In this document: positions 1 through 9,186 of the stretch, in pieces
Position numbering within the stretch: the first letter of the stretch is position 1
How the letters are laid out: each line of letters begins with the position of its first letter
Origin: a virus
IMG/VR virus record: IMGVR_UViG_3300029319_000045
Coordinates: 1 to 47,167 of that record
DNA length: 47,167 bases
Strand: one strand, 5' to 3'
Translations under genes and position numbers: made by a program
Notes under the pieces: model-generated
Databases searched by the model: none
The model's input: the letters and a program-made list of their open reading frames with translations, nothing else
What the model was told of the DNA's origin: nothing

Positions 1-235
1 GAGATTCAGTTTCAAATAATTCAACTTCATAGCCTTCTATAAAAACTTGATCATTGAATAGTTTATTAATTTGAACTTCGTTTTTATCTCCACTCCGCCA
101 TGCTTCCCATTTCCAATCATCAGGCAATGCACCTTGTAGGAATTCATTGTCTATAAATTGTAATAATTTTACAGGGCAATCAAAATGCAGTTTTCCACCT
201 TTAGGGTTAATCAACAATACAGTTTTATCAGCCAT
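1..235 (-). CDS. Hypothetical protein, 3' end cut by window edge
   Basis: An open frame begins at ATG 235 (reading leftward) and runs off the window after 78 codons without a stop. The protein begins MADKTVLLINPKGGKLHFD and is rich in Trp and acidic residues. I do not recognise the family and see no catalytic motif. An AGAAAGG ribosome site lies about 8 bases upstream of the ATG. It is the last visible member of a leftward string of small genes, and the upstream gene ends only 3 bases before it, so it is very likely co-transcribed with the genes to its right. Confidence 0.7.
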   Translation of the reverse strand, partial: MADKTVLLINPKGGKLHFDCPVKLLQFIDNEFLQGALPDDWKWEAWRSGDKNEVQINKLFNDQVFIEGYEVELFETES

Positions 236-238
236 TTT

Positions 239-634
239 TTATACCTTTCTTTGATTCAAAAATTTGTCAATCATATTGCGATGATCATTTACGAAACTGA
301 TTACTTCATCAAATGTATAAAATGCGTGATGGTAATCCCAATTTTCACTATTTTCTATCCATCCCCAATCATAGGGAACTACCACAAATCTAGGAATTTC
401 TTTCGTTGCATTTGATACAACGTCTATATATCCATATCTTTTATTGGGTTCGGGGTGATCCGTAAAAACTTGCCAATAATTTTTAACTAAAAAACTTGGG
501 CATTCGTCATTAGGATAGCTTATATAGTGTTCCCAACTTTTAGGGATAGGGAGATCACTCCAGTAATGCTCCCTGTCTATAAAACCTCCTTTAATATTTT
601 TAATGTATGCCTCAATTGAATTGTTATTATCCAT
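239..634 (-). CDS. Hypothetical protein (131 aa)
   Basis: A 131-residue soluble protein starting MDNNNSIEAYIKNIKGGF. It is rich in Trp, Tyr and Pro and lacks membrane segments or recognisable motifs. Its start codon lies inside the last codons of the upstream 41-residue gene (overlap 627-634), so it is translationally linked in the leftward accessory operon. The gene to its left starts 3 bases beyond its stop. No function can be assigned. Its compact packing with neighbours and full-length open frame make it a real gene rather than a chance frame. Confidence 0.8.
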   Translation of the reverse strand: MDNNNSIEAYIKNIKGGFIDREHYWSDLPIPKSWEHYISYPNDECPSFLVKNYWQVFTDHPEPNKRYGYIDVVSNATKEIPRFVVVPYDWGWIENSENWDYHHAFYTFDEVISFVNDHRNMIDKFLNQRKV

Positions 635-752
635 TGTTAGCTTTCTTTAGTTTGTCTAATTGATGACCTATTTTTTTTCTTTCTTCGTTTGTTTTGGCAT
701 TTACATATTTTTTTGCCAATTGCAAATATTTTTCAAAATCTTCATTTTTCAT
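627..752 (-). CDS. Small hypothetical protein (41 aa)
   Basis: A 41-codon frame read leftward from ATG 752: MKNEDFEKYLQLAKKYVNA, followed by a Lys-rich tail ending KLKKANNG. It is predicted to be one or two charged helices. The start ATG overlaps the stop of the gene on its right (ATGA arrangement, 749-752). Its own stop overlaps the start of the 131-residue gene on its left. The double overlap is the main evidence that it is translated. No family is recognised, and the function is unknown. Confidence 0.65.
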   Translation of the reverse strand: MKNEDFEKYLQLAKKYVNAKTNEERKKIGHQLDKLKKANNG

Positions 753-943
753 TTGTAGCCTTTCAAAATAAGATTTGCTCTTTTCATTGCTTTCTCTTTT
801 GTGTCAAATAAAAAGTAGTTTTCTTTTAATTTTTTATAATCGTAGCAATGAACAAAAAAACTTTTTTCTTCATTTTTACCTACAACTATTTCTAGTTTAT
901 GAGGTATCGTAATGTATTCTTTTTTCATTTGTTTAGTATCCAT
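749..943 (-). CDS. Hypothetical protein (64 aa)
   Basis: A 64-residue protein, MDTKQMKKEYITIPHKLEI and onward, ending in a Lys-rich helix. It overlaps the start of the next gene by 4 bases (ATGA) and its own start lies inside the 24-residue frame at 925-999. No membrane segment or known motif is visible; the alternation of charged and hydrophobic residues suggests a small alpha/beta fold. It belongs to the same leftward accessory string. A second in-frame ATG (residue 6) is possible as the start, so the N-terminus is not certain. Confidence 0.65.
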   Translation of the reverse strand: MDTKQMKKEYITIPHKLEIVVGKNEEKSFFVHCYDYKKLKENYFLFDTKEKAMKRANLILKGYK

Positions 944-999
944 TCCAAAACAGTTAAAATTAAATACGCAAAATAAATTCCAATAAATAATAAAATCAT
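925..999 (-). CDS. Possible 24-residue membrane peptide
   Basis: Leftward from ATG 999 the frame reads MILLFIGIYFAYLILTVLEW then four residues and stop. It is almost entirely hydrophobic, one transmembrane helix long. Its stop overlaps the start region of the 64-residue gene, like the other overlapping starts in this string. Phages commonly encode such single-helix peptides (lysis regulators, membrane modulators), but a short AT-rich frame can also be hydrophobic by chance because T-rich codons encode Phe, Leu and Ile. No strong ribosome site is visible (AAAAGGATTAAAA upstream is only moderate). Confidence 0.4.
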   Translation of the reverse strand: MILLFIGIYFAYLILTVLEWILNK

Positions 1000-1010
1000 T
1001 TTTAATCCTT

Positions 1011-1718
1011 TTAATGTGCTAAATATACGATCTGATCGTATCTCTTAGACCAACATTTTTTACACTCTCCGCACTTGTGTGTTCCGTCAATAGTCGCATG
1101 GCATAAAACAGAATTATTCGTCTTGATTAAACTATAGTTTTCTACCTTTGATATCACAGTAGAAATTTTATAGTTTGCATTAGGTTTAAATTTGTTTTTG
1201 TTCACCATGTAATCAGAAATCCGAACCACAACATTTTTGGGAAAATCTCCGTATTGTTTTAAATACTTTTTAATAACCGGAAATTCTTTCGTGGGTATCC
1301 AATGCTTAACTTTTGGCGTTTGCTTTGCTACCTCTATAATCCTGATCAAAAATTCAATTCCGTTTGCCTTTGCGTTTGCGTTAAAATCGCCAGAATCTAA
1401 CCACCGGAAATACTTTTTTTCTGTTTTATTTATTAGAGAAACCATAGCATTAACCCAGTCATCTCTATTTTGAATTGCTAAGTTCTGCAACCTTTGGGCA
1501 TGGGATTTTTGAACACTAGGATAATTGTAATTGCCTTCATATGCGTAACAATTTTCACAAACTGAACCTTTGCATTTGTGAAGTTTTGAACCAATGCCAC
1601 AATTTAAAACAGAAATACCAAAGTTATTAACGTCATTCCCCATTTTAGAAGAATGTCCCAAAGTTCCAACAATCTCTGTTGCTTTCTTTTTTGTGAATAT
1701 AATTTTTTGTTCTATCAT
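1011..1718 (-). CDS. GP88-like phage protein
   Basis: The 235-residue product carries the hallmark of the phage gene product 88 family: a conserved SKMG region followed by a Cys-rich block CGIGSKLHKCKGSVCENCYA (about residues 40-60) and a second Cys cluster near the C-terminus (HKCGECKKCW). These Cys pairs could hold a metal. The biochemical role of the family is not known to me. I chose ATG 1718, giving MIEQKIIFTKKKATEI, because a longer frame from 1820 would run through the small Cys gene at 1741-1914 and the extra 34 residues look unlike the family. It is part of the leftward accessory operon. Confidence 0.75.
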   Translation of the reverse strand: MIEQKIIFTKKKATEIVGTLGHSSKMGNDVNNFGISVLNCGIGSKLHKCKGSVCENCYAYEGNYNYPSVQKSHAQRLQNLAIQNRDDWVNAMVSLINKTEKKYFRWLDSGDFNANAKANGIEFLIRIIEVAKQTPKVKHWIPTKEFPVIKKYLKQYGDFPKNVVVRISDYMVNKNKFKPNANYKISTVISKVENYSLIKTNNSVLCHATIDGTHKCGECKKCWSKRYDQIVYLAH

Positions 1719-1740
1719 CTTTCTAGCCTTTCTATGCTTT

Positions 1741-1914
1741 CTATTTAATTGCATATTTTGAATAACAACGGGAACAACAATCTTCTGTCGTGTCTCCGTC
1801 CCACGCAAAAAACCAATCATATGTTTCAGTTTCTTCTGTATTAAAAACCATTTTACAACCTTGACAGGTTACATTTTCAATATTGTAAAAACAGTCTAAT
1901 TGAGATAAATACAT
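1741..1914 (-). CDS. Small Cys-pair (zinc-ribbon-like) protein (57 aa)
   Basis: Leftward from ATG 1914 the frame encodes MYLSQLDCFYNIENVTCQGC and onward to ATRK-poor tail CCSRCYSKYAIK, stop at 1741. Two Cys pairs, C17-x2-C20 and C47-x2-C50, are spaced like a small zinc ribbon. The start is preceded by AGAAAGGATATAGA, a fair ribosome site. It is the first gene of the leftward operon that contains the GP88-like gene. The frame in another register across this stretch extends the GP88 gene upstream, but the Cys pairing and ribosome site favour this small gene. Function is unknown; a DNA- or protein-binding zinc module is an inference. Confidence 0.6.
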   Translation of the reverse strand: MYLSQLDCFYNIENVTCQGCKMVFNTEETETYDWFFAWDGDTTEDCCSRCYSKYAIK

Positions 1915-1977
1915 TCTATATCCTTTCTATCTTTATTCTTTCTAAACTACTTTTATTATTATCTCATACTACTTATA

Positions 1978-1995
1978 GGATAGGGAAAAAACTTG
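1978..1995. repeat. A-tract direct repeat, copy 1
   Basis: GGATAGGGAAAAAACTTG. The same word recurs at 2167-2186 and, less exactly, at 3344-3361. All three copies lie in non-coding DNA in the same orientation and each is followed within 100 bases by a CCCACCCACCC run. Role is unknown; an operator or promoter element is plausible. Confidence 0.55.
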
Positions 1996-2039
1996 CGCCC
2001 TCTTGTTTGTTCCTTGATTCCTGAAACGTGCGCCAAGAT

Positions 2040-2055
2040 CCCACCCACCCAACCC
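2040..2055 (-). other. G-quadruplex motif 1 (minus strand)
   Basis: Four C-triplets at 2040-2042, 2044-2046, 2048-2050 and 2053-2055 give, on the minus strand, four G-triplets separated by 2, 1 and 1 bases. This satisfies the standard G3 N1-7 quadruplex pattern. Whether it folds in vivo is not shown by sequence. Confidence 0.65.
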
Positions 2056-2089
2056 GAAAACCATTGACAAATCAAAGGGAATCGGGAAA

Positions 2090-2106
2090 CCCACCCACCC
2101 CACCCC
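2090..2106 (-). other. G-quadruplex motif 2 (minus strand)
   Basis: C-runs at 2090-2092, 2094-2096, 2098-2101 and 2103-2106 separated by single A residues. The minus strand therefore reads GGGGTGGGGTGGGTGGG, four G-tracts with one-base loops, the arrangement known to form the most stable parallel quadruplexes. Confidence 0.7.
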
Positions 2107-2166
2107 AAACAATTTATAATCTTAGTTCCTGGTTTCATTAGTTAATACCTATTAAACAAGGATAAA

Positions 2167-2200
2167 GGATAGGTAAAAAATACTTGACTTGACAAAAATA
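2167..2200. repeat. A-tract direct repeat, copy 2, with TTGACAAAAAT
   Basis: GGATAGGTAAAAAATACTTG followed closely by TTGACAAAAAT. This matches copy 1 (1978-1995) and copy 3 (3344-3369), where the order ATAGG, A-tract, TTGACAAAAAT is kept. TTGACA resembles a -35 box, but no -10 box follows at the right distance on the plus strand. On the minus strand the same bases supply the T-run of the adjoining terminator. Confidence 0.55.
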
Positions 2201-2218
2201 TGGGTGGGAAACCACCCA
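2191..2218 (-). terminator. Leftward intrinsic terminator
   Basis: TGGGTGG (2201-2207), a GAAA loop and CCACCCA (2212-2218) form a perfect 7-bp stem. Read leftward the stem is followed by TATTTTTG (2200-2193). It lies just past the stop at 2226, so it closes the leftward operon 3253-2226. Confidence 0.8.
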
Positions 2219-2225
2219 CCCAGAT

Positions 2226-2660
2226 TCATTCTTTATTATTAGGTTTGTTCTGATCAAAATCAAAGTATTCGTCCTCATCGTAGTAATACTCATCGCCATT
2301 TTCATCGCATTCTGTTTTTGTAGGGGCTAAACCTACAAGACTACCAAAACCATTACAGGGTGTTTCAATCCTGTAATTACAGAATTGCTCTCCAATGTAA
2401 TCAGGCATAACGATTTCAAAGAACTGTCTAGCAGAGTCATAACAATCTCTACTGAACCACCCTCTCAATGCTTCATCATCTTTAACCTTGATGATCGTAT
2501 CAAGTGGAACAGTAACCAAACCAAAATCTTCTGTATCCAAATGGACAGTTCCTGTGACACGAACCAATTTGTATTTATTCTCTTTAGAATAACCACCAAC
2601 AGTCACTACCCCTTTGAGGTTATCTAAACATTCCTGAATATGTTGATCTGCTTTACTCAT
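2226..2660 (-). CDS. Hypothetical acidic-tailed protein (144 aa)
   Basis: A 144-residue soluble protein beginning MSKADQHIQECLDNLKGVV. The first 100 residues look like a compact mixed fold with regular beta-like hydrophobic patterning; the last 30 are strongly acidic and Tyr-rich (YYYDEDEYFDFDQ), a feature seen in proteins that mimic DNA or bind basic partners. No family is recognised. The start overlaps the stop of the upstream small gene by 4 bases and a GGAGGG ribosome site precedes it. It is the last gene before the leftward terminator at 2191-2218. Confidence 0.85.
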   Translation of the reverse strand: MSKADQHIQECLDNLKGVVTVGGYSKENKYKLVRVTGTVHLDTEDFGLVTVPLDTIIKVKDDEALRGWFSRDCYDSARQFFEIVMPDYIGEQFCNYRIETPCNGFGSLVGLAPTKTECDENGDEYYYDEDEYFDFDQNKPNNKE

Positions 2661-2800
2661 TTCTTCAAACCCTCCTTAATTAAAATCATAAATACTTGCT
2701 TCCTGGAAATACTGCAGCCGAGCTCCTTCTCGAACTTCTTTTGCAATCTGACCAAGAGTTTTAACTCTTGGTCAGTAAACTTAAATAAGATCTGGTTCAT
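2657..2800 (-). CDS. Small ribbon-helix-helix-like protein (47 aa)
   Basis: Leftward from ATG 2800 the frame encodes MNQILFKFTDQELKLLVRLQ, then a Lys/Glu-rich helix, then SISRKQVFMILIKEGLKK. The pattern of a short beta strand with alternating residues, a helix, a turn beginning with Ser-Arg and a final hydrophobic helix is that of Arc/CopG-type ribbon-helix-helix regulators, which dimerise and bind operators. The match is by shape and not by a diagnostic residue, so it is tentative. It overlaps the neighbours on both sides by 4 bases (ATGA), and the ribosome site AGGAGAAAGC is good. It could regulate the repeats in the nearby non-coding regions. Confidence 0.6.
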   Translation of the reverse strand: MNQILFKFTDQELKLLVRLQKKFEKELGCSISRKQVFMILIKEGLKK

Positions 2801-3000
2801 GCTTTCTCCTTTCTTTTAATGGCTTCAAGCATTGTTTCAAACCTCTTAGGAACTACAAAGAAATCATTACAGATATCACACGCGCGATCATCTGGTTTAT
2901 GAGAAAGAGGCCAAGGATTATTACCTTCAACCCAATCTTTATTCTTTGCTACTTCATCACATGACACACCACATAAACAACACTTTGGAACTTCATTCAT
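2797..3000 (-). CDS. Small double-CxxC protein (67 aa)
   Basis: A 67-residue protein with two Cys pairs, C7-x2-C10 and C41-x2-C44, plus an NNPWPL segment between them and a CDICN motif. The arrangement looks like a small treble-clef or zinc-ribbon module; related short proteins of this layout are common in marine phages and bacteria. Zn binding is an inference from the paired Cys. It sits in the middle of the leftward operon with an AGGAGAAAG ribosome site and a 4-base overlap with the next gene. Its target is unknown. Confidence 0.75.
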   Translation of the reverse strand: MNEVPKCCLCGVSCDEVAKNKDWVEGNNPWPLSHKPDDRACDICNDFFVVPKRFETMLEAIKRKEKA

Positions 3001-3022
3001 ACTTTCTCCTTTCGGAGAGGGC

Positions 3023-3253
3023 TCACGCCCTCTCCTTTAGTTTCGAATATAAATTTAGATCCTGAACCAAATCCTCATATACATGAAGGTTCTCGCACAG
3101 GTGTCGAATCATTTTCAATGCAAACGCGTGATTGATTTGCAATAATGACTCTAAACCGTTTTGAGTGAATACTGCGCCCTCACCTTCCATTAGCTTTGGA
3201 TTGATTCTAGCAACGCATTCGGCTACTGCTTTTGACGTGGCTTCGTCTAGCAT
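3023..3253 (-). CDS. Hypothetical protein (76 aa)
   Basis: A 76-residue helical-looking protein starting MLDEATSKAVAECVARINPK, with no membrane segment. It is the first gene of the leftward operon ending at 2226 and has a strong AAGGAGAAAG ribosome site 4-5 bases before ATG 3253. The family is not recognised. Its promoter must lie in 3254-3522, shared back-to-back with terL. The Leu/His-rich second half could pack as a small helical bundle, but no function is claimed. Confidence 0.75.
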   Translation of the reverse strand: MLDEATSKAVAECVARINPKLMEGEGAVFTQNGLESLLQINHAFALKMIRHLCENLHVYEDLVQDLNLYSKLKERA

Positions 3254-3343
3254 ACTTTCTCCTTTCTTGTTAGTTACATACTAAGGATATACCAGATATA
3301 TACTCACGTCTAATTGTTTTTTTTCATCGGAGTCCCTGGTCGC

Positions 3344-3369
3344 ATAGGCAAAAAATATTTGACAAAAAT
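3344..3369. repeat. A-tract direct repeat, copy 3
   Basis: ATAGGCAAAAAATATTTG runs into TTGACAAAAAT, matching copy 2 at 2167-2200 in order and spacing apart from a 4-base difference. A CCCACCCACCC run follows at 3382. Confidence 0.55.
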
Positions 3370-3381
3370 CCTGGCGCGTGA

Positions 3382-3396
3382 CCCACCCACCCGCCC
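3382..3396 (-). other. G-quadruplex motif 3 (minus strand)
   Basis: C-triplets at 3382-3384, 3386-3388, 3390-3392 and 3394-3396 with single-base spacers give GGGCGGGTGGGTGGG on the minus strand, a one-base-loop quadruplex motif. It lies between the divergent leftward operon and terL. Confidence 0.7.
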
Positions 3397-3424
3397 GGTT
3401 TTACTAACACACCTTTACACAAGA

Positions 3425-3476
3425 TTTAGACAAAGGAAAACGTATGAAAAACCTATGACCCCCCACCTTGTCTAAA
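3425..3476 (+). promoter_or_regulatory. Hairpin with 9-bp inverted repeat upstream of terL
   Basis: TTTAGACAA (3425-3433) and TTGTCTAAA (3468-3476) are exact reverse complements; GG 3435-3436 can extend the stem with CC 3466-3467 past a bulged A. The loop holds AAGG-preceded ATG AAA AAC CTA TGA, a four-codon frame. AAGCCTTTTT follows the stem, so a weak terminator or attenuator is possible. It could equally be a protein-binding dyad. Confidence 0.45.
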
Positions 3477-3522
3477 AAGCCTTTTTGCTATAAAATTTTC
3501 ACAAAATTCAAAACGTATCGAA

Positions 3523-4980
3523 ATGTTGATAAAAGAAGACCCAGAAACAGAAATTGCTAGACTCGAGTACAGATTAGCAAGACTGACTGCCTTAGAAGAT
3601 GCAAAGAAAAACTTTTTGTCTTTTGTGCGATTTATCTGGCCTCAGTTTATTTGTGGATACCATCACAAAGAGATGGCAAAACAATTTGAACGATTAGTAA
3701 ATAACCAATGCAATCGCATTATAATTAACATACCACCTCGTCATGGTAAATCTGAATTAACTTCTTATCTGTATTTAGCATGGCTCATGGGCAATCATCC
3801 TAGATCCAAGATCATTCAAGCAACACACACAGCTGAGTTAGCCATGCGTTTTGGTCGTAAGGTCAGAAACCTTATGGATAGTGATGCGTACAAAGAAGTA
3901 TTCCCCGATGTTCGATTGGCTGCAGATAGTAAAGCTGCAGGTCGATGGGAAACAAATAAGGGAGGGGAGTACTTTGCTTCTGGTGTTGGTGGTGCAATGA
4001 CAGGTCGTGGTGCTGACTTTTTGGTTATTGACGATCCGCATTCGGAGCAAGACGCATTGTCTGAAACAGCTATGGAAAAAGCATACGAATGGTACACCTC
4101 TGGTCCTAGACAGCGTTTGCAACCAGGAGGCAAAATTCTTTTAGTTATGACTCGATGGTCTAAAGTTGACTTAACTGCTCAGGTATTAAATGATCAGGCA
4201 AAAGACAGCCGTGCAGATAAATGGGAGGTTATTGAGTTTCCGGCATTGTTGCCAAGCGGTAAACCTACATGGCCTGAGATGTGGAAAGAACAAGATCTTT
4301 TAGCAGTAAAGGCGGCTTTGCCAATATCTAAATGGAATGCTCAATGGCAACAAAACCCAACAGCAGAAGAAGGAGCGATCTTTAAAAGAGAGTGGTGGAA
4401 TGTGTATGAGGGTCAAACCATACCTTCATTAGATTATGTGATACAAAGTTACGATACTGCGTATACCAAAAAAGAGACAGCAGACTTTTCTGCAATCACA
4501 ACGTGGGGGGTTTTTCGCCCAGACGAAGAAACAGAAGCTTTGATCTTAATTGACTCAAAGAAAGGAAGATGGGATTTTCCTGAGTTAAAAAAGGTCGCAT
4601 ATGAATTATATAAATACTGGAGTCCAGATTGTGTTTTAATAGAGGCTAAGGCATCAGGTTTACCTTTGTCTCAAGAACTTCGCAGAACTGGTATTCCTGT
4701 AGTAAACTACTCACCAGGAGGAAGAAACTCTGGAACAGATAAGATTAGTAGAGCAAATGCGATTGCTCCTGTTTTTGAGGCCGGAATGGTGTGGGCTCCA
4801 GATGAACCTTGGGCAGAGGAGGTTGTTGAAGAGATGGCAGAATTTCCGTATGGTGACCATGATGACTTGGTTGATAGTGCGGTTCAAGCAGTCATGCGGT
4901 TTCGACAGGGTAACTTCATCGATTTACCCTCTGATTATATTGAGGACGAAGTGGGTCCTCCACAATTTTCTTATTATTGA
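3523..4980 (+). CDS. terL: Terminase large subunit (TerL)
   Basis: The packaging motor: its ATPase domain pumps DNA into the prohead and its nuclease domain cuts the concatemer. The N-terminal ATPase shows Walker A PPRHGKSE (residues 71-78), Walker B FLVIDDP (166-172) and a coupling motif ILLVMTRWS (205-213). The C-terminal RNase H-like nuclease has acidic residues at YDTAY (D311), VLIEAK (E374) and DHDDLVD (D448 and D451). At 485 residues it is of normal length. No ribosome site precedes ATG 3523 and no other in-frame start lies close upstream, so initiation may be weak or leader-controlled. No small subunit gene is seen next to it, which is unusual but not rare in marine phages. Confidence 0.97.
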   Translation: MLIKEDPETEIARLEYRLARLTALEDAKKNFLSFVRFIWPQFICGYHHKEMAKQFERLVNNQCNRIIINIPPRHGKSELTSYLYLAWLMGNHPRSKIIQATHTAELAMRFGRKVRNLMDSDAYKEVFPDVRLAADSKAAGRWETNKGGEYFASGVGGAMTGRGADFLVIDDPHSEQDALSETAMEKAYEWYTSGPRQRLQPGGKILLVMTRWSKVDLTAQVLNDQAKDSRADKWEVIEFPALLPSGKPTWPEMWKEQDLLAVKAALPISKWNAQWQQNPTAEEGAIFKREWWNVYEGQTIPSLDYVIQSYDTAYTKKETADFSAITTWGVFRPDEETEALILIDSKKGRWDFPELKKVAYELYKYWSPDCVLIEAKASGLPLSQELRRTGIPVVNYSPGGRNSGTDKISRANAIAPVFEAGMVWAPDEPWAEEVVEEMAEFPYGDHDDLVDSAVQAVMRFRQGNFIDLPSDYIEDEVGPPQFSYY

Positions 4981-4983
4981 TAA

Positions 4984-7900
4984 ATGGAAAAACTAACTTC
5001 GGAACAACTATTAGAGATTAGAGATAATCCAAACGTACAAAAGTTTATGGATATTATCGGAACTTTAGAATCCGGTAATCGATACAACGTCATAACTGGC
5101 GGAGAAACTTTTGATGATGATTCTAAGCATCCTGATAAGTTTGGTGTTAGAACTGCCGATGGGGTAAGTGATGCGGCAGGTAGATATCAATTTTTGAACA
5201 CAACTTTTCAAGGTATAGTAGATCAAAACCCACAAGCTGAAATTACAGATTTCTCTCCTGAAGCACAAGATAAGGCTTTTATTTTGTTGTTAAAAGGAGA
5301 AGGAGTTTTAGATGATGTGATGCAAGGGGGTCAGGGACATACTAGAGCAATAGAAAATCTTGGCAAACAATTTACTTCTCTACCTTCTTCTACAAAGTTT
5401 TACAAGCAAGGTGGAGCAAAAACGTATGCATATCTAAACGAGAAATTTGGTGTTCCGTTTCCTAGACCGCCAGCAACTCCTGGTGTGAGCAAACCTTCAA
5501 AAGAAGAAATCCTAAATACAGACATGACGATTGTGCAGCAACCATTCATGGATCCTGCTCAACAACCATCTAGCTATGACATAGCTGCCGCGTTGACATA
5601 TTTGTCTGATACACAAACAAACGCGGAGACAAACTTCTTAAATGCAATGATGGGTATGCCCACTACAGGTGCTACAAAATCTTCGTTTGACCCTTTGACC
5701 AAGTTTCTTAAAGAGTCTGCTCAAGGCGATACTGCCTTAGATGTTATGGTCGAGGAGCAAGAACCAAGGAACAGGGCAGAAGGCTCACCGCCTGAAGGAG
5801 AAGTAAAAAGAACTCCTGGTGCTTTTATAGGGCCTTCGGAAGAAGTCAGTCCTGCGATGGCTACCGTTAGGGATTTTTTCAAAGGAGTTGGTAGTTTTAT
5901 TTCGCCAACAAGTAAAGGTGGTTATTACGATTATTTTGGAGACTATGTTCCTCCGGCTCCTGCCGAAAAACGAGGGTTATCCGCAGAAGAATTATTAGGT
6001 ATCAAAGGGATAGATGGAGAAAAAGGTATTATAGGTATGTTTGATGATCTTGCCTATGGTAGATCTTTGTTAAGAGATAAAAGAAAAGATAGGCCTGTGT
6101 CGTATCTTTTTCCTGAATCATATGTAAAACCTCAGTATAGGGGTCCGTTAACAGATTTAGGTTTCTTAGGAGTAGATGCTGTTACTTTAGGTCGTAACCC
6201 TTTAAGAGGAGCTGCACTAGTCGCTCGAGAAGGAGCAGAGCAACTAGGTGATTTAGGTAAATATGGTTTAGGTAAAGTAGAAAAAGATCTCTCAGGAGAA
6301 GAAAGATTATTTAGAGAAGGCTCTTTTTACGATACGGCTATGTCAACGCTTAGACCTACTTTTATGTTTCAACCATTTGAAAAAAAAGTTATGGAAAGAG
6401 CTATTCCTTCTTATCAAGATCCAACTGATCTTCCAGAGGTAGCTCAACCATTTGTTCAACAACAAATTGAATTAGCAAATCAAAATAAAGCAAAGATGCA
6501 GGAGTTAAAGGATTTAGAAGCTGTAGTAAAAGGAGAGCCTAATTCTGATGAAAAAATAAAAAAGTTGAATGATATAAAGGAACAAAAACAAGAAATTAAA
6601 AACAGTAAACCAGATCCTAAAAAGATAATTTACATACAAAATGCGATTGAAAAAACTCATCGTGATACAGGAGTATATAACCCAAATGTCACAGGAGTTG
6701 ATCCTTATTATTTATCTTTACTGGGTAGAACTAAAGCAGGTGTTGCATCTTTACAAGATCAAACCCCTTTAGATGCATCTTTAAGAAAAACGGTTAATAA
6801 AGATATTTTTGAAAGTTTAGAGTTATTACAAGAAAATCCTAAAAAATTTTTTGGTGGGTTGAATCTACCTTCAAGAGGAGGTGATGTTACATATGACGGT
6901 GTTTTTACTTTTATAGGTACAGGAATTTTTCCTGAAGCAAAAATGGACTCTCTTCCTTCAATTTTTTCAAGTGCTCCAAATAAATCAGGAAATTCTATTT
7001 CTGATTCTACTTTAAAAAACATAGAAAAAATACAAAGAAGAGCTAATGAACCATATAAATTTATAGTTTCAGAAAACGATCTTAGGTATGGTAGGGACGA
7101 TTTTTCTGAAGGCGATCTTAAACTTTTCTTATCTTTTGATACTGACAGCGACTATAATTATGTAAATCCAAAGATAGACGGTTTTCTTGTAGATCCTGTA
7201 AAACTTAGTCAACATCTAAAAGAATTTTCTTATCATAAAGATATGCCTCTAGCAGACGTTTTAAAGGCAGATTTAGGAACGAGTGAAGAGTTTGTAAAAA
7301 AATTAATAAAAATACCAACCAAAGAATTTTTTCTTAGAAAAAAATATAATATAAAAGGTGGTGATACTTTTAAAGACAGAAAAGATCACGCTGTATTAGA
7401 AGAATTAGACGATTATTCAGCAAAATTAGGTAAAGATTTTGTTGAAGATCAAGAAAGAATGTTTTCTAGATTATTTCTTGGTCAAGTAGCAAATAACAGG
7501 CAATCAAAAACAGATGTTCCCTTAGATTATAGGCAAAAAATAGCTGTTCCATTTGATTTTAATCCAGAAAATACAAAAGAGGTTCAAGGTTTAATACGAG
7601 CGTATGGAATAAAAAATTTACCTAAAGGAGATATTGAAGCTTATGAAAAAGATGTAAATAAAATACTTCCAATACTTCAAAGTAGTCTTCAAGATTTAAA
7701 AAACAATTTTAGTAGGTATGTAAAATCAGATAATCCATCATATGTTGCTGGCGACTTTATGGACGAAAGAAAAAAATATGTTCCTTCAGAAAAACAAAAA
7801 CCACTCTCACAAATTGAACAATCAAAAGTTATAACAGATGCTATTGAATTAGGTTTAAAAAGAGCTGTAATCCAAAACGCACAAAAAGATCTATCGTACA

Positions 7901-9186
7901 TTGGTATTACATCGCTTTTTTCTACATCTGTACCGGATGTTAGAGCAGCTACTCCGCTACTTGAAAACGCTCTTCCTATTCGTTATGAAACACCTTATTC
8001 TGTTAGGCAAACTGGAAGAGGTTATTCTTTTGAATCGATGCTTCCAGAAGAGGGTGTTATAAACAAAGCTAATTTTGCAAAAGCGATAAAGAAACCTTCA
8101 GATTTTGAGGACTATGGATCACTTATTTTAGATAAAATTAGGACTTTTGGATTTTCAGGTCCAAGAAGTATTATTGGATATTCATCATCTGAGGCTGGAA
8201 AACCAATTCTGCGTGATCCTGTTTATCCAGGAAATAGAGGATTTAATATGGGGTTGTCTATTGAAAGTGTTTCTCCTTATGAAAAAACACTTCCAACTAG
8301 TATTGTAGATATAATTAATAACCCAAAAGAACTTCCTGGTTATCAATACCAAGCTTATGAAGAGCTTTTTCAAAAAGAACTAAGTGAGTATGATACTAGA
8401 CCAAGCCCTGGTTACATGGAAAGAACTTTAAGTTTGTTTGATTCAATTAGTGCTGATAAAATGAAAGATAAAGATTTGTATACATTGCAATCTTTATTAG
8501 ATGATGTTGAACATACTTCAAAATCTGCTACTAACAAAATACAAAAATTAGTAGGGAGTATGGGAGGTTCTGGTAGACAACGAATAATTGATAAAAAACT
8601 TTCTCCTGAAAACAAAATGCTTGACACAGAGTTATATTTAAAAGTTGATGATCCTGCTCTTAATTTAAGTAAAGACACTAAAAGTGGTTGGTATGAAGAT
8701 ACAACTAAACAAGGTATGAAACTTAGAGGAGAAATTTTTAATCATTGTATTAAAGATCCTAATAAAAGATATTTAGATGCTTGTTTAGATGTAAATCCTC
8801 AGGAAATGAGAATTTTTCATTATTTCAATGATAAAGGACATCCAATTTTAACGTATGCTCTTGATATAAGAGAACCAGGAGGATCTTTTATAGATAAAGA
8901 TCCTAAAAATGTTCGATGGACAAAAGAACTGTATGGATACGATGATATAAGGGTTCGAGATTTAGCTAAAGAACAAGACGAATTATATAAGGCTACAGGA
9001 AGATTTAATGATGACATAAGTCTTCCATTACTTAAAGACGATAGTGATCTTGGAGTTAGATCTATGACTTTTAGAGAAGTAAAAGAAAAGATTATAGCTC
9101 CCCTTGAAAAACAAATAGAAAACGACGGTTTTAAGTTTGCAGATAAAACACCTAAAGCTTCTGATATGTTAGAAACTGATGATTAA
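4984..9186 (+). CDS. Giant lysozyme-headed virion protein (1400 aa)
   Basis: Residues 10-160 match the lambda-R-like lytic glycosidase fold (GH104): catalytic E29 in GTLESG, SDAAGRYQF (62-70), DFSPEAQDKA (89-98) and a terminal NLGKQFTSLP. This domain cuts peptidoglycan glycan chains. The remaining 1200 residues are low in recognisable domains, with a GSPPEGE motif near 267-273, a Lys/Glu helical stretch (490-540) and a C-terminal region (about 1232-1330) with GMKLRGEIFNHC and a following FHYFNDKGHPILTYAL that faintly resembles PcfJ-type domains of polyvalent proteins. It sits between TerL and portal, 3 bases after TerL. A virion-carried protein that opens the cell wall at ejection is the best inference; a soluble lysin is less likely at this size. 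Confidence 0.8.
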   Translation: MEKLTSEQLLEIRDNPNVQKFMDIIGTLESGNRYNVITGGETFDDDSKHPDKFGVRTADGVSDAAGRYQFLNTTFQGIVDQNPQAEITDFSPEAQDKAFILLLKGEGVLDDVMQGGQGHTRAIENLGKQFTSLPSSTKFYKQGGAKTYAYLNEKFGVPFPRPPATPGVSKPSKEEILNTDMTIVQQPFMDPAQQPSSYDIAAALTYLSDTQTNAETNFLNAMMGMPTTGATKSSFDPLTKFLKESAQGDTALDVMVEEQEPRNRAEGSPPEGEVKRTPGAFIGPSEEVSPAMATVRDFFKGVGSFISPTSKGGYYDYFGDYVPPAPAEKRGLSAEELLGIKGIDGEKGIIGMFDDLAYGRSLLRDKRKDRPVSYLFPESYVKPQYRGPLTDLGFLGVDAVTLGRNPLRGAALVAREGAEQLGDLGKYGLGKVEKDLSGEERLFREGSFYDTAMSTLRPTFMFQPFEKKVMERAIPSYQDPTDLPEVAQPFVQQQIELANQNKAKMQELKDLEAVVKGEPNSDEKIKKLNDIKEQKQEIKNSKPDPKKIIYIQNAIEKTHRDTGVYNPNVTGVDPYYLSLLGRTKAGVASLQDQTPLDASLRKTVNKDIFESLELLQENPKKFFGGLNLPSRGGDVTYDGVFTFIGTGIFPEAKMDSLPSIFSSAPNKSGNSISDSTLKNIEKIQRRANEPYKFIVSENDLRYGRDDFSEGDLKLFLSFDTDSDYNYVNPKIDGFLVDPVKLSQHLKEFSYHKDMPLADVLKADLGTSEEFVKKLIKIPTKEFFLRKKYNIKGGDTFKDRKDHAVLEELDDYSAKLGKDFVEDQERMFSRLFLGQVANNRQSKTDVPLDYRQKIAVPFDFNPENTKEVQGLIRAYGIKNLPKGDIEAYEKDVNKILPILQSSLQDLKNNFSRYVKSDNPSYVAGDFMDERKKYVPSEKQKPLSQIEQSKVITDAIELGLKRAVIQNAQKDLSYIGITSLFSTSVPDVRAATPLLENALPIRYETPYSVRQTGRGYSFESMLPEEGVINKANFAKAIKKPSDFEDYGSLILDKIRTFGFSGPRSIIGYSSSEAGKPILRDPVYPGNRGFNMGLSIESVSPYEKTLPTSIVDIINNPKELPGYQYQAYEELFQKELSEYDTRPSPGYMERTLSLFDSISADKMKDKDLYTLQSLLDDVEHTSKSATNKIQKLVGSMGGSGRQRIIDKKLSPENKMLDTELYLKVDDPALNLSKDTKSGWYEDTTKQGMKLRGEIFNHCIKDPNKRYLDACLDVNPQEMRIFHYFNDKGHPILTYALDIREPGGSFIDKDPKNVRWTKELYGYDDIRVRDLAKEQDELYKATGRFNDDISLPLLKDDSDLGVRSMTFREVKEKIIAPLEKQIENDGFKFADKTPKASDMLETDD

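Follow-up and report, generated by a model that had tools for sequence, protein, structure and literature searches.

What are the G-run motifs that stand upstream of the terminase large subunit gene (terL) of this phage, and what might they control? The window, i.e. the whole stretch of DNA that was analysed, comprises bases 1-47167 of a virus record of 59,927 bases (47,167 bases, 36.5% GC). A regular-expression scan of both strands identified exactly three canonical motifs (four runs of at least three G, loops of 1-7 nt), arrays A, B and D of the table, all with C-runs on the plus strand and G-runs on the minus strand and all located in the control region upstream of terL. The positions, run lengths and loop lengths given by the first-pass annotation were correct in every case, as was its remark that no such motif was noticed elsewhere in the window. 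The comparison with shuffled sequence that it suggested gave a mean of 0.087 motifs per window (maximum 2 in 300 dinucleotide shuffles) and an expectation of 0.003 motifs in the region 1959-3522. Arrays B and A have the two strongest G4Hunter scores of the window (-2.04 and -1.56, respectively). Bacteriophages carry 0.00005 motifs per kb at a G4Hunter score of at least 2.0 (PMC8036883).

Table. Features of the terL-side control region, in coordinates of the window.
Feature	Position	Strand	Sequence or remark
GP88-family gene (PF17338, phrog_1392)	1011..1820	-	downstream of A-C on the leftward strand
Array A	2040..2055	-	plus CCCACCCACCCAACCC; minus GGGTTGGGTGGGTGGG
TTGACA	2064..2069	+	20 nt before array B
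Array B	2090..2106	-	plus CCCACCCACCCCACCCC; minus GGGGTGGGGTGGGTGGG
Leftward promoter-like TTGTCA-N18-TATCCT	2166..2195	-	consensus match only; regional count equals the shuffle mean
TTGACA	2189..2194	+	17 nt before CCACCCACCC of site C
Site C	2201..2222 (also given as 2202-2221)	-	TGGGTGGG..CCCACCCA hairpin and T-rich tail
Variable leftward accessory ORFs	2226-2660, 2797-3000, 3023-3253	-	separate the A-C block from array D
Inverted repeat, strong	3014-3035		GGAGAGGGCTCACGCCCTCTCC; between leftward ORFs 2797-3000 and 3023-3253; terminator-like on plus
GGAGTCCC(T)	3322-3332		includes GAGTC (a GANTC methylation site); also found before the terL operon of many relatives
TTGACA	3359..3364	+	17 nt before array D
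Array D	3382..3396	-	plus CCCACCCACCCGCCC; minus GGGCGGGTGGGTGGG; divergent gap between leftward ORF 3023-3253 and terL
C-rich element	3459..3467	+	CCCCCCACC; immediately upstream of the -35-like box of the terL promoter
terL promoter-like TTGTCT-N17-TAAAAT	3468..3496	+	identical in L005-L008
terL (terminase large subunit)	3523..4980	+	anchor of comparison

Arrays A and B sit between leftward genes, just upstream of the GP88-family gene, a family also found beside the arrays of phage 023Pt_psg01. They overlap a mechanically called ORF of 59 amino acids (1959-2138, minus strand) that is frameshifted in the relative L008 by loss of one base inside array B, so the DNA at A and B is likelier to be non-coding. 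Site C, directly after the stop of the leftward ORF 2226-2660, does not have the canonical four runs in the window. Its GGGTGGG/CCCACCC hairpin is GC-rich and is followed by a T-run at an operon end, which makes the site terminator-like on the minus strand, and predicted RNA folding prefers this hairpin over a quadruplex. Five terminator-like sites are found in 1850-3600 versus 0.9 in shuffles. An Rfam search of the window at the gathering score gave no match. A C-rich element related to CCCCCCACC is present in the L010-type relatives and in Pelagibacter phage EXVC032P Baldr. The whole record holds one further CCCACCCACCC, at 59905. It lies in a terminal stretch (57957-59927; L085 10953-12928) that repeats window positions 1-2062 at 86-91% identity, and is therefore a second copy of site A; since the end of the record repeats its beginning, the contig wraps with a diverged second copy and the true genome length is near 58 kb. 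L085 also codes for a likely terminase small subunit (7941-8618; phrog_641) and a likely Mom-family DNA-modification protein (6161-6646; PF25680).

The clustering in the terL-side control region that was noted at first reading is non-random, is kept in close relatives and recurs in related phages. A block of ~260 bp with A, B and C is kept in L006 and L008 (terL 96-99%), in which the genes to its right are replaced, the accessory ORFs within 2226..3253 having largely given way to other ORFs. In both relatives array A is orthologous, with loop changes and all four runs kept (it reads CCCGCCCACCCGACCCC in L008, with runs of still at least 3), and the ortholog of site C is a full four-run array; array B of L008 has lost one C and four runs are still present. 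Array D is intact in L007, where its left flank has changed. No four-run motif is present in the relatives L010-L016 (terL 76-78%). In five of these relatives GGGTGGG[C/T]GGG occurs ~300 bp ahead of terL, on the other strand; a CCCACCCCC element lies closer to terL in most of these relatives. An exact-pattern search for more copies of the A-C block returned only the three known relatives, and BLASTN searches of deposited phages with the A-C and D blocks gave chance matches only.

Three terL-anchored samples, chosen by terL and not by the motif, represent three phage lineages, the further lineages coming from a pattern scan of viral contigs and two terL-anchored samples. The phages of lineage 2 form another group, with Baldr as a relative (TerL 59%); the anchor L104 of this lineage was found via the motif, and the sample around L104 was not motif-selected. 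Over the three samples, in which many loci are related and array counts are not independent, 53 three-run G/C arrays occur in 542 kb upstream of terL versus none in 1,164 kb downstream. Each near-complete lineage-3 genome (56-58 kb) has just one array site, at a divergent junction ~50 nt before a conserved TTGCAA-N17-TANAAT-like sequence. The TerL relatives include HTVC027P, HTVC023P, 023Pt_psg01 and DSL-LC04. The first three, pelagiphages of HTVC023P type, resemble the present phage in gene order and in TerL (56-60%). The likeness extends in 023Pt_psg01 to five related C-run repeats of 31 nt with CCCACCCNCCCC, one or two in each of the four intergenic gaps from terS to terL and none elsewhere in its 59.8 kb. 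HTVC027P and HTVC023P have no G/C-run arrays, which implies that the group can do without the element; their terS-terL regions carry other repeats, GCTTGnn in 14-nt steps (L197 16499-17746) and repeats of 33-58 nt (L199 12469-15089), respectively. Array orientation flips between lineages and is opposite in L207/L240/L235 and in the L010-type relatives. The G/C-run arrays of these control regions are a real, recurrent feature.

Other repeats were observed in the sampled contigs. A phage group with no close deposited relative (L107, L118, L130, L136, L140, L151, L155, L168, L177, L178) carries CCCACCCACCCACCCTT(A/G) at a conserved intergenic site, flanked in L140 and L151 by the inverted repeat CACATACTA..TAGTATGTG. 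A second tandem G-rich array, (TCGGG)3, is found on the opposite strand ~1.1-1.4 kb before the array in L290, L291, L297, L298 and L307, in the last of these just upstream of a leftward phrog_2554 gene; GGGGTTC repeats, also on the opposite strand, take its place in the further lineage-3 loci L304, L320 and L329.

The arrays have a close spatial relation to promoter-like sequences. Of the 42 dereplicated arrays, 17 have TTGAC 13-24 nt upstream (300 shuffles: mean 0.53, maximum 3), the distance being 17-20 nt in 16 of these 17; within the window a -35 box precedes B, C and D at this fixed distance, and not A. The lineage-2 array directly follows a consensus promoter, summarised as TTGACA-N17-TATAAT-N-GGTGGGNGGGNGGG. 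The individual forms are TTGACA-N16-TATAAT-C-GGTTGGGTGGGCGGG (L235, L268, L281; 77-94 bp before terL), TTGACA-N17-TATACT-C-GGTGGGTGGGTGGG (L240), TTGACA-N17-TATAAT-A-GGTGGGCGGGCGGG (L207) and TTGACA-N17-TATCAT-A-GGTGGGCGGGCGGG (L212). These promoter arrays have G on the non-template strand and cover the expected start site. The C-type array of the window and of lineage 3 lies at nearly the same distance from TTGACA as in lineage 2; neither in the window nor in lineage 3 is a -10 box, present in the six lineage-2 contigs just listed, evident in the interval from TTGACA to the C-type array. The absence of such a box in the window counts against a promoter reading, and so do the facts that promoter-like matches in the window region are no commoner than in shuffles and that A-C share the orientation of D though their flanking genes run leftward. 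The pattern TTGACA-N15-18-TANNNT-N-GGTGGGNGGGNGGG had no match in 84,980 cellular genomes. A sigma-factor annotation of DSL-LC04 (L201:31404-31661), considered as a possible reader of TTGACA, was discarded as it has no Pfam support. Lineage-3 loci also show recurrent dyads TGTCAAA-N2-4-TTTGAC 40-100 nt before the array, which may be a regulator site.

The explanation that we prefer, with a probability of about 0.5, is that the arrays are promoter-embedded regulatory elements that control transcription start and are read by a putative protein or by their fold. The motifs would be copies of a short GGGT/CCCA tandem array within promoter-like modules of the early/late control region, each array acting in cis to tune the initiation of transcription in the leftward accessory genes and the rightward terL/structural operon, either via a putative phage or host regulator or via local strand opening and folding. 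This is suggested by the clustering of arrays before terL and in neighbouring intergenic gaps, at a fixed spacing from TTGACA or directly after a consensus -10, and by the retention of the A-B-C block in L006 and L008 while neighbouring genes are replaced. From the presence, enrichment, position and alleles of the arrays, which are observed, we infer regulation, the direction of its effect and what any reader protein would be. Which allele an array has, CCCA or GTGCT, correlates with the neighbouring leftward gene block: the GTGCT allele, found in L294 and L305, accompanies two adjacent leftward genes that are absent from 15 CCCA loci. This association is as expected if a neighbouring gene encodes the array reader, and with two GTGCT loci linkage alone could explain it. 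Against the promoter-embedded reading count also that the analysis identified no protein binding the arrays and that HTVC027P and HTVC023P have none of these arrays. A broader version, in which unrelated marine phages would share one control element made of a -35 box and a quadruplex-forming array at -10/start-site spacing, acting as a structural or regulator-dependent start switch that replaces or supplements the -10 box, is unlikely.

A more tentative and rather doubtful proposal is that the quadruplex (or i-motif) is itself functional, the G-strand folding in infection to open or block a promoter, or folding in the leader RNA of leftward transcripts. At orthologous sites the capacity to form a quadruplex is kept in close relatives and in most lineage-3 loci. 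Loop bases vary and four runs are kept in 17 unique lineage-3 arrays, four runs being required by the search pattern; likewise, the 1- or 2-nt loops of L104/L105/L125 vary and their four runs stay, and array B of L008 keeps its runs despite the lost C. RNA folding with the quadruplex option predicts strong quadruplexes, with -30.9 versus -2.1 kcal/mol for A, -28.9 versus -5.2 for B and -36.2 versus -12.5 for D. However, in L294 and L305 (terL 91-93%) the GTGCT repeat (GTGCTGTGCTGTGCT / GTGCTGTGCTGTGCTGG) occupies the orthologous site, in place of the CCCACCC[A/T]CCC[A/G/C]CCC of their relatives, the right flank GATGGGTAAA being common to both. The arrays of 023Pt_psg01, L207, L212, L240 and L235 have mostly three full runs and at most an extra GG, site C of the window is predicted to prefer a hairpin, and canonical motifs are absent from the relatives with 76-78% terL and from the isolates HTVC027P and HTVC023P. 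With GTGCT or three-run orthologs and an orientation that differs between lineages, the quadruplex is not supported as the conserved functional feature, and the best reading of these alleles is that quadruplex potential, although real and common, is probably dispensable, whether it is tolerated or contributes to function.

Contig ends provide a further line of evidence on the fold and also bear on DNA packaging. L296, L300 (55 kb) and L315 begin inside an array and L303 just after one, where ~0.2 contig starts are expected in a 25-nt window (P ~5e-5, under a rough uniform model). Similarly, 6 of the 41 array matches in contigs available at full length lie at most 40 nt from a contig end versus 0.45 expected, and L167, L144 and the record itself end 0-18 nt past an array, the last 12 nt past CCCACCCACCC of site A. 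This pile-up hints at a hard-to-copy structure; as unrelated phages also end at arrays, these ends more likely reflect a stable structure that halts copying or sequencing than they do a genome terminus. Arrays serving the terminase as pac or cos signals would agree with their place before terL, with their fixed orientation in the window, with their being on one strand per record in part of the records scanned, and with contigs ending at an array. This reading is nevertheless distinctly improbable: the unrelated contigs L112 (68% GC), L116 (60% GC) and L168 likewise have an accumulation of ends at this sequence, end positions scatter over tens of bases, there are several arrays per genome, and the orientation is reversed in the phages named above. 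That reversal also led us to reject a strictly fixed orientation to terL as a packaging or replication signal, and a physical cos end at the array is set back by the unrelated contigs that end at the same sequence.

Repeated sites of the same orientation in non-coding DNA could alternatively belong to a replication origin, as iteron-like or primase sites, and the raw cumulative GC skew has its minimum at 3830 and the AT skew at 3340. These minima coincide with the switch of gene strand (3253/3523), which explains them; moreover, isolates of the group replicate without arrays and an array spacing of 50 bp to 1.3 kb is unlike that of iterons, so that an origin is very improbable. Least probable of all is that chance or neutral short tandem repeats accumulated in unconstrained spacer DNA. 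The arrays are indeed simple repeats and some relatives have none or carry other repeats, but the shuffle expectation for 1959-3522, the conservation of arrays while flanks change (D of L007; lineage 3), their restriction to the upstream side of terL and the fixed TTGACA spacing all oppose it. Of the roles in control that were first imagined for the motifs, control of transcription is consistent with the data, whereas packaging and replication find no specific support.

Promoter-embedded arrays have parallels in known systems. Promoter-proximal G-quadruplex motifs of viruses and bacteria share the G3+N1-7 pattern, loops of 1-2 nt, a promoter-like neighbourhood and a high G4Hunter score; the arrays described here differ in having three-run and non-G (GTGCT) alleles in either orientation, their predicted fold not being strictly conserved. 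Phage operators that overlap sigma70 core promoters are similar in the -10/start-site position of the array relative to TTGACA, the two divergent transcription units and the multiple copies, whereas the arrays are direct 4-bp tandem repeats with no dyad, several copies have no recognisable -10 and the regulator is putative. In the genome of Baldr a C-run element, CCCAAACCGACCCCCCACCCCCC, occurs at one place only, close to where the rightward operon begins; Baldr belongs to a different phage group and the element is not a four-run motif. In the library of papers searched, none links pelagiphages with quadruplexes. An RNA polymerase gene is lacking in HTVC027P (PMC12753301).

This phage has relatives that infect Pelagibacter, one of the most abundant bacteria of the sea, and the arrays bear on how such phages time their early and late genes. 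The natural alleles CCCA x4, GGGT x3 and GTGCT x3 are a ready set of test sequences, making this a rare phage case in which natural variants allow the role of a quadruplex to be separated from that of a protein site.
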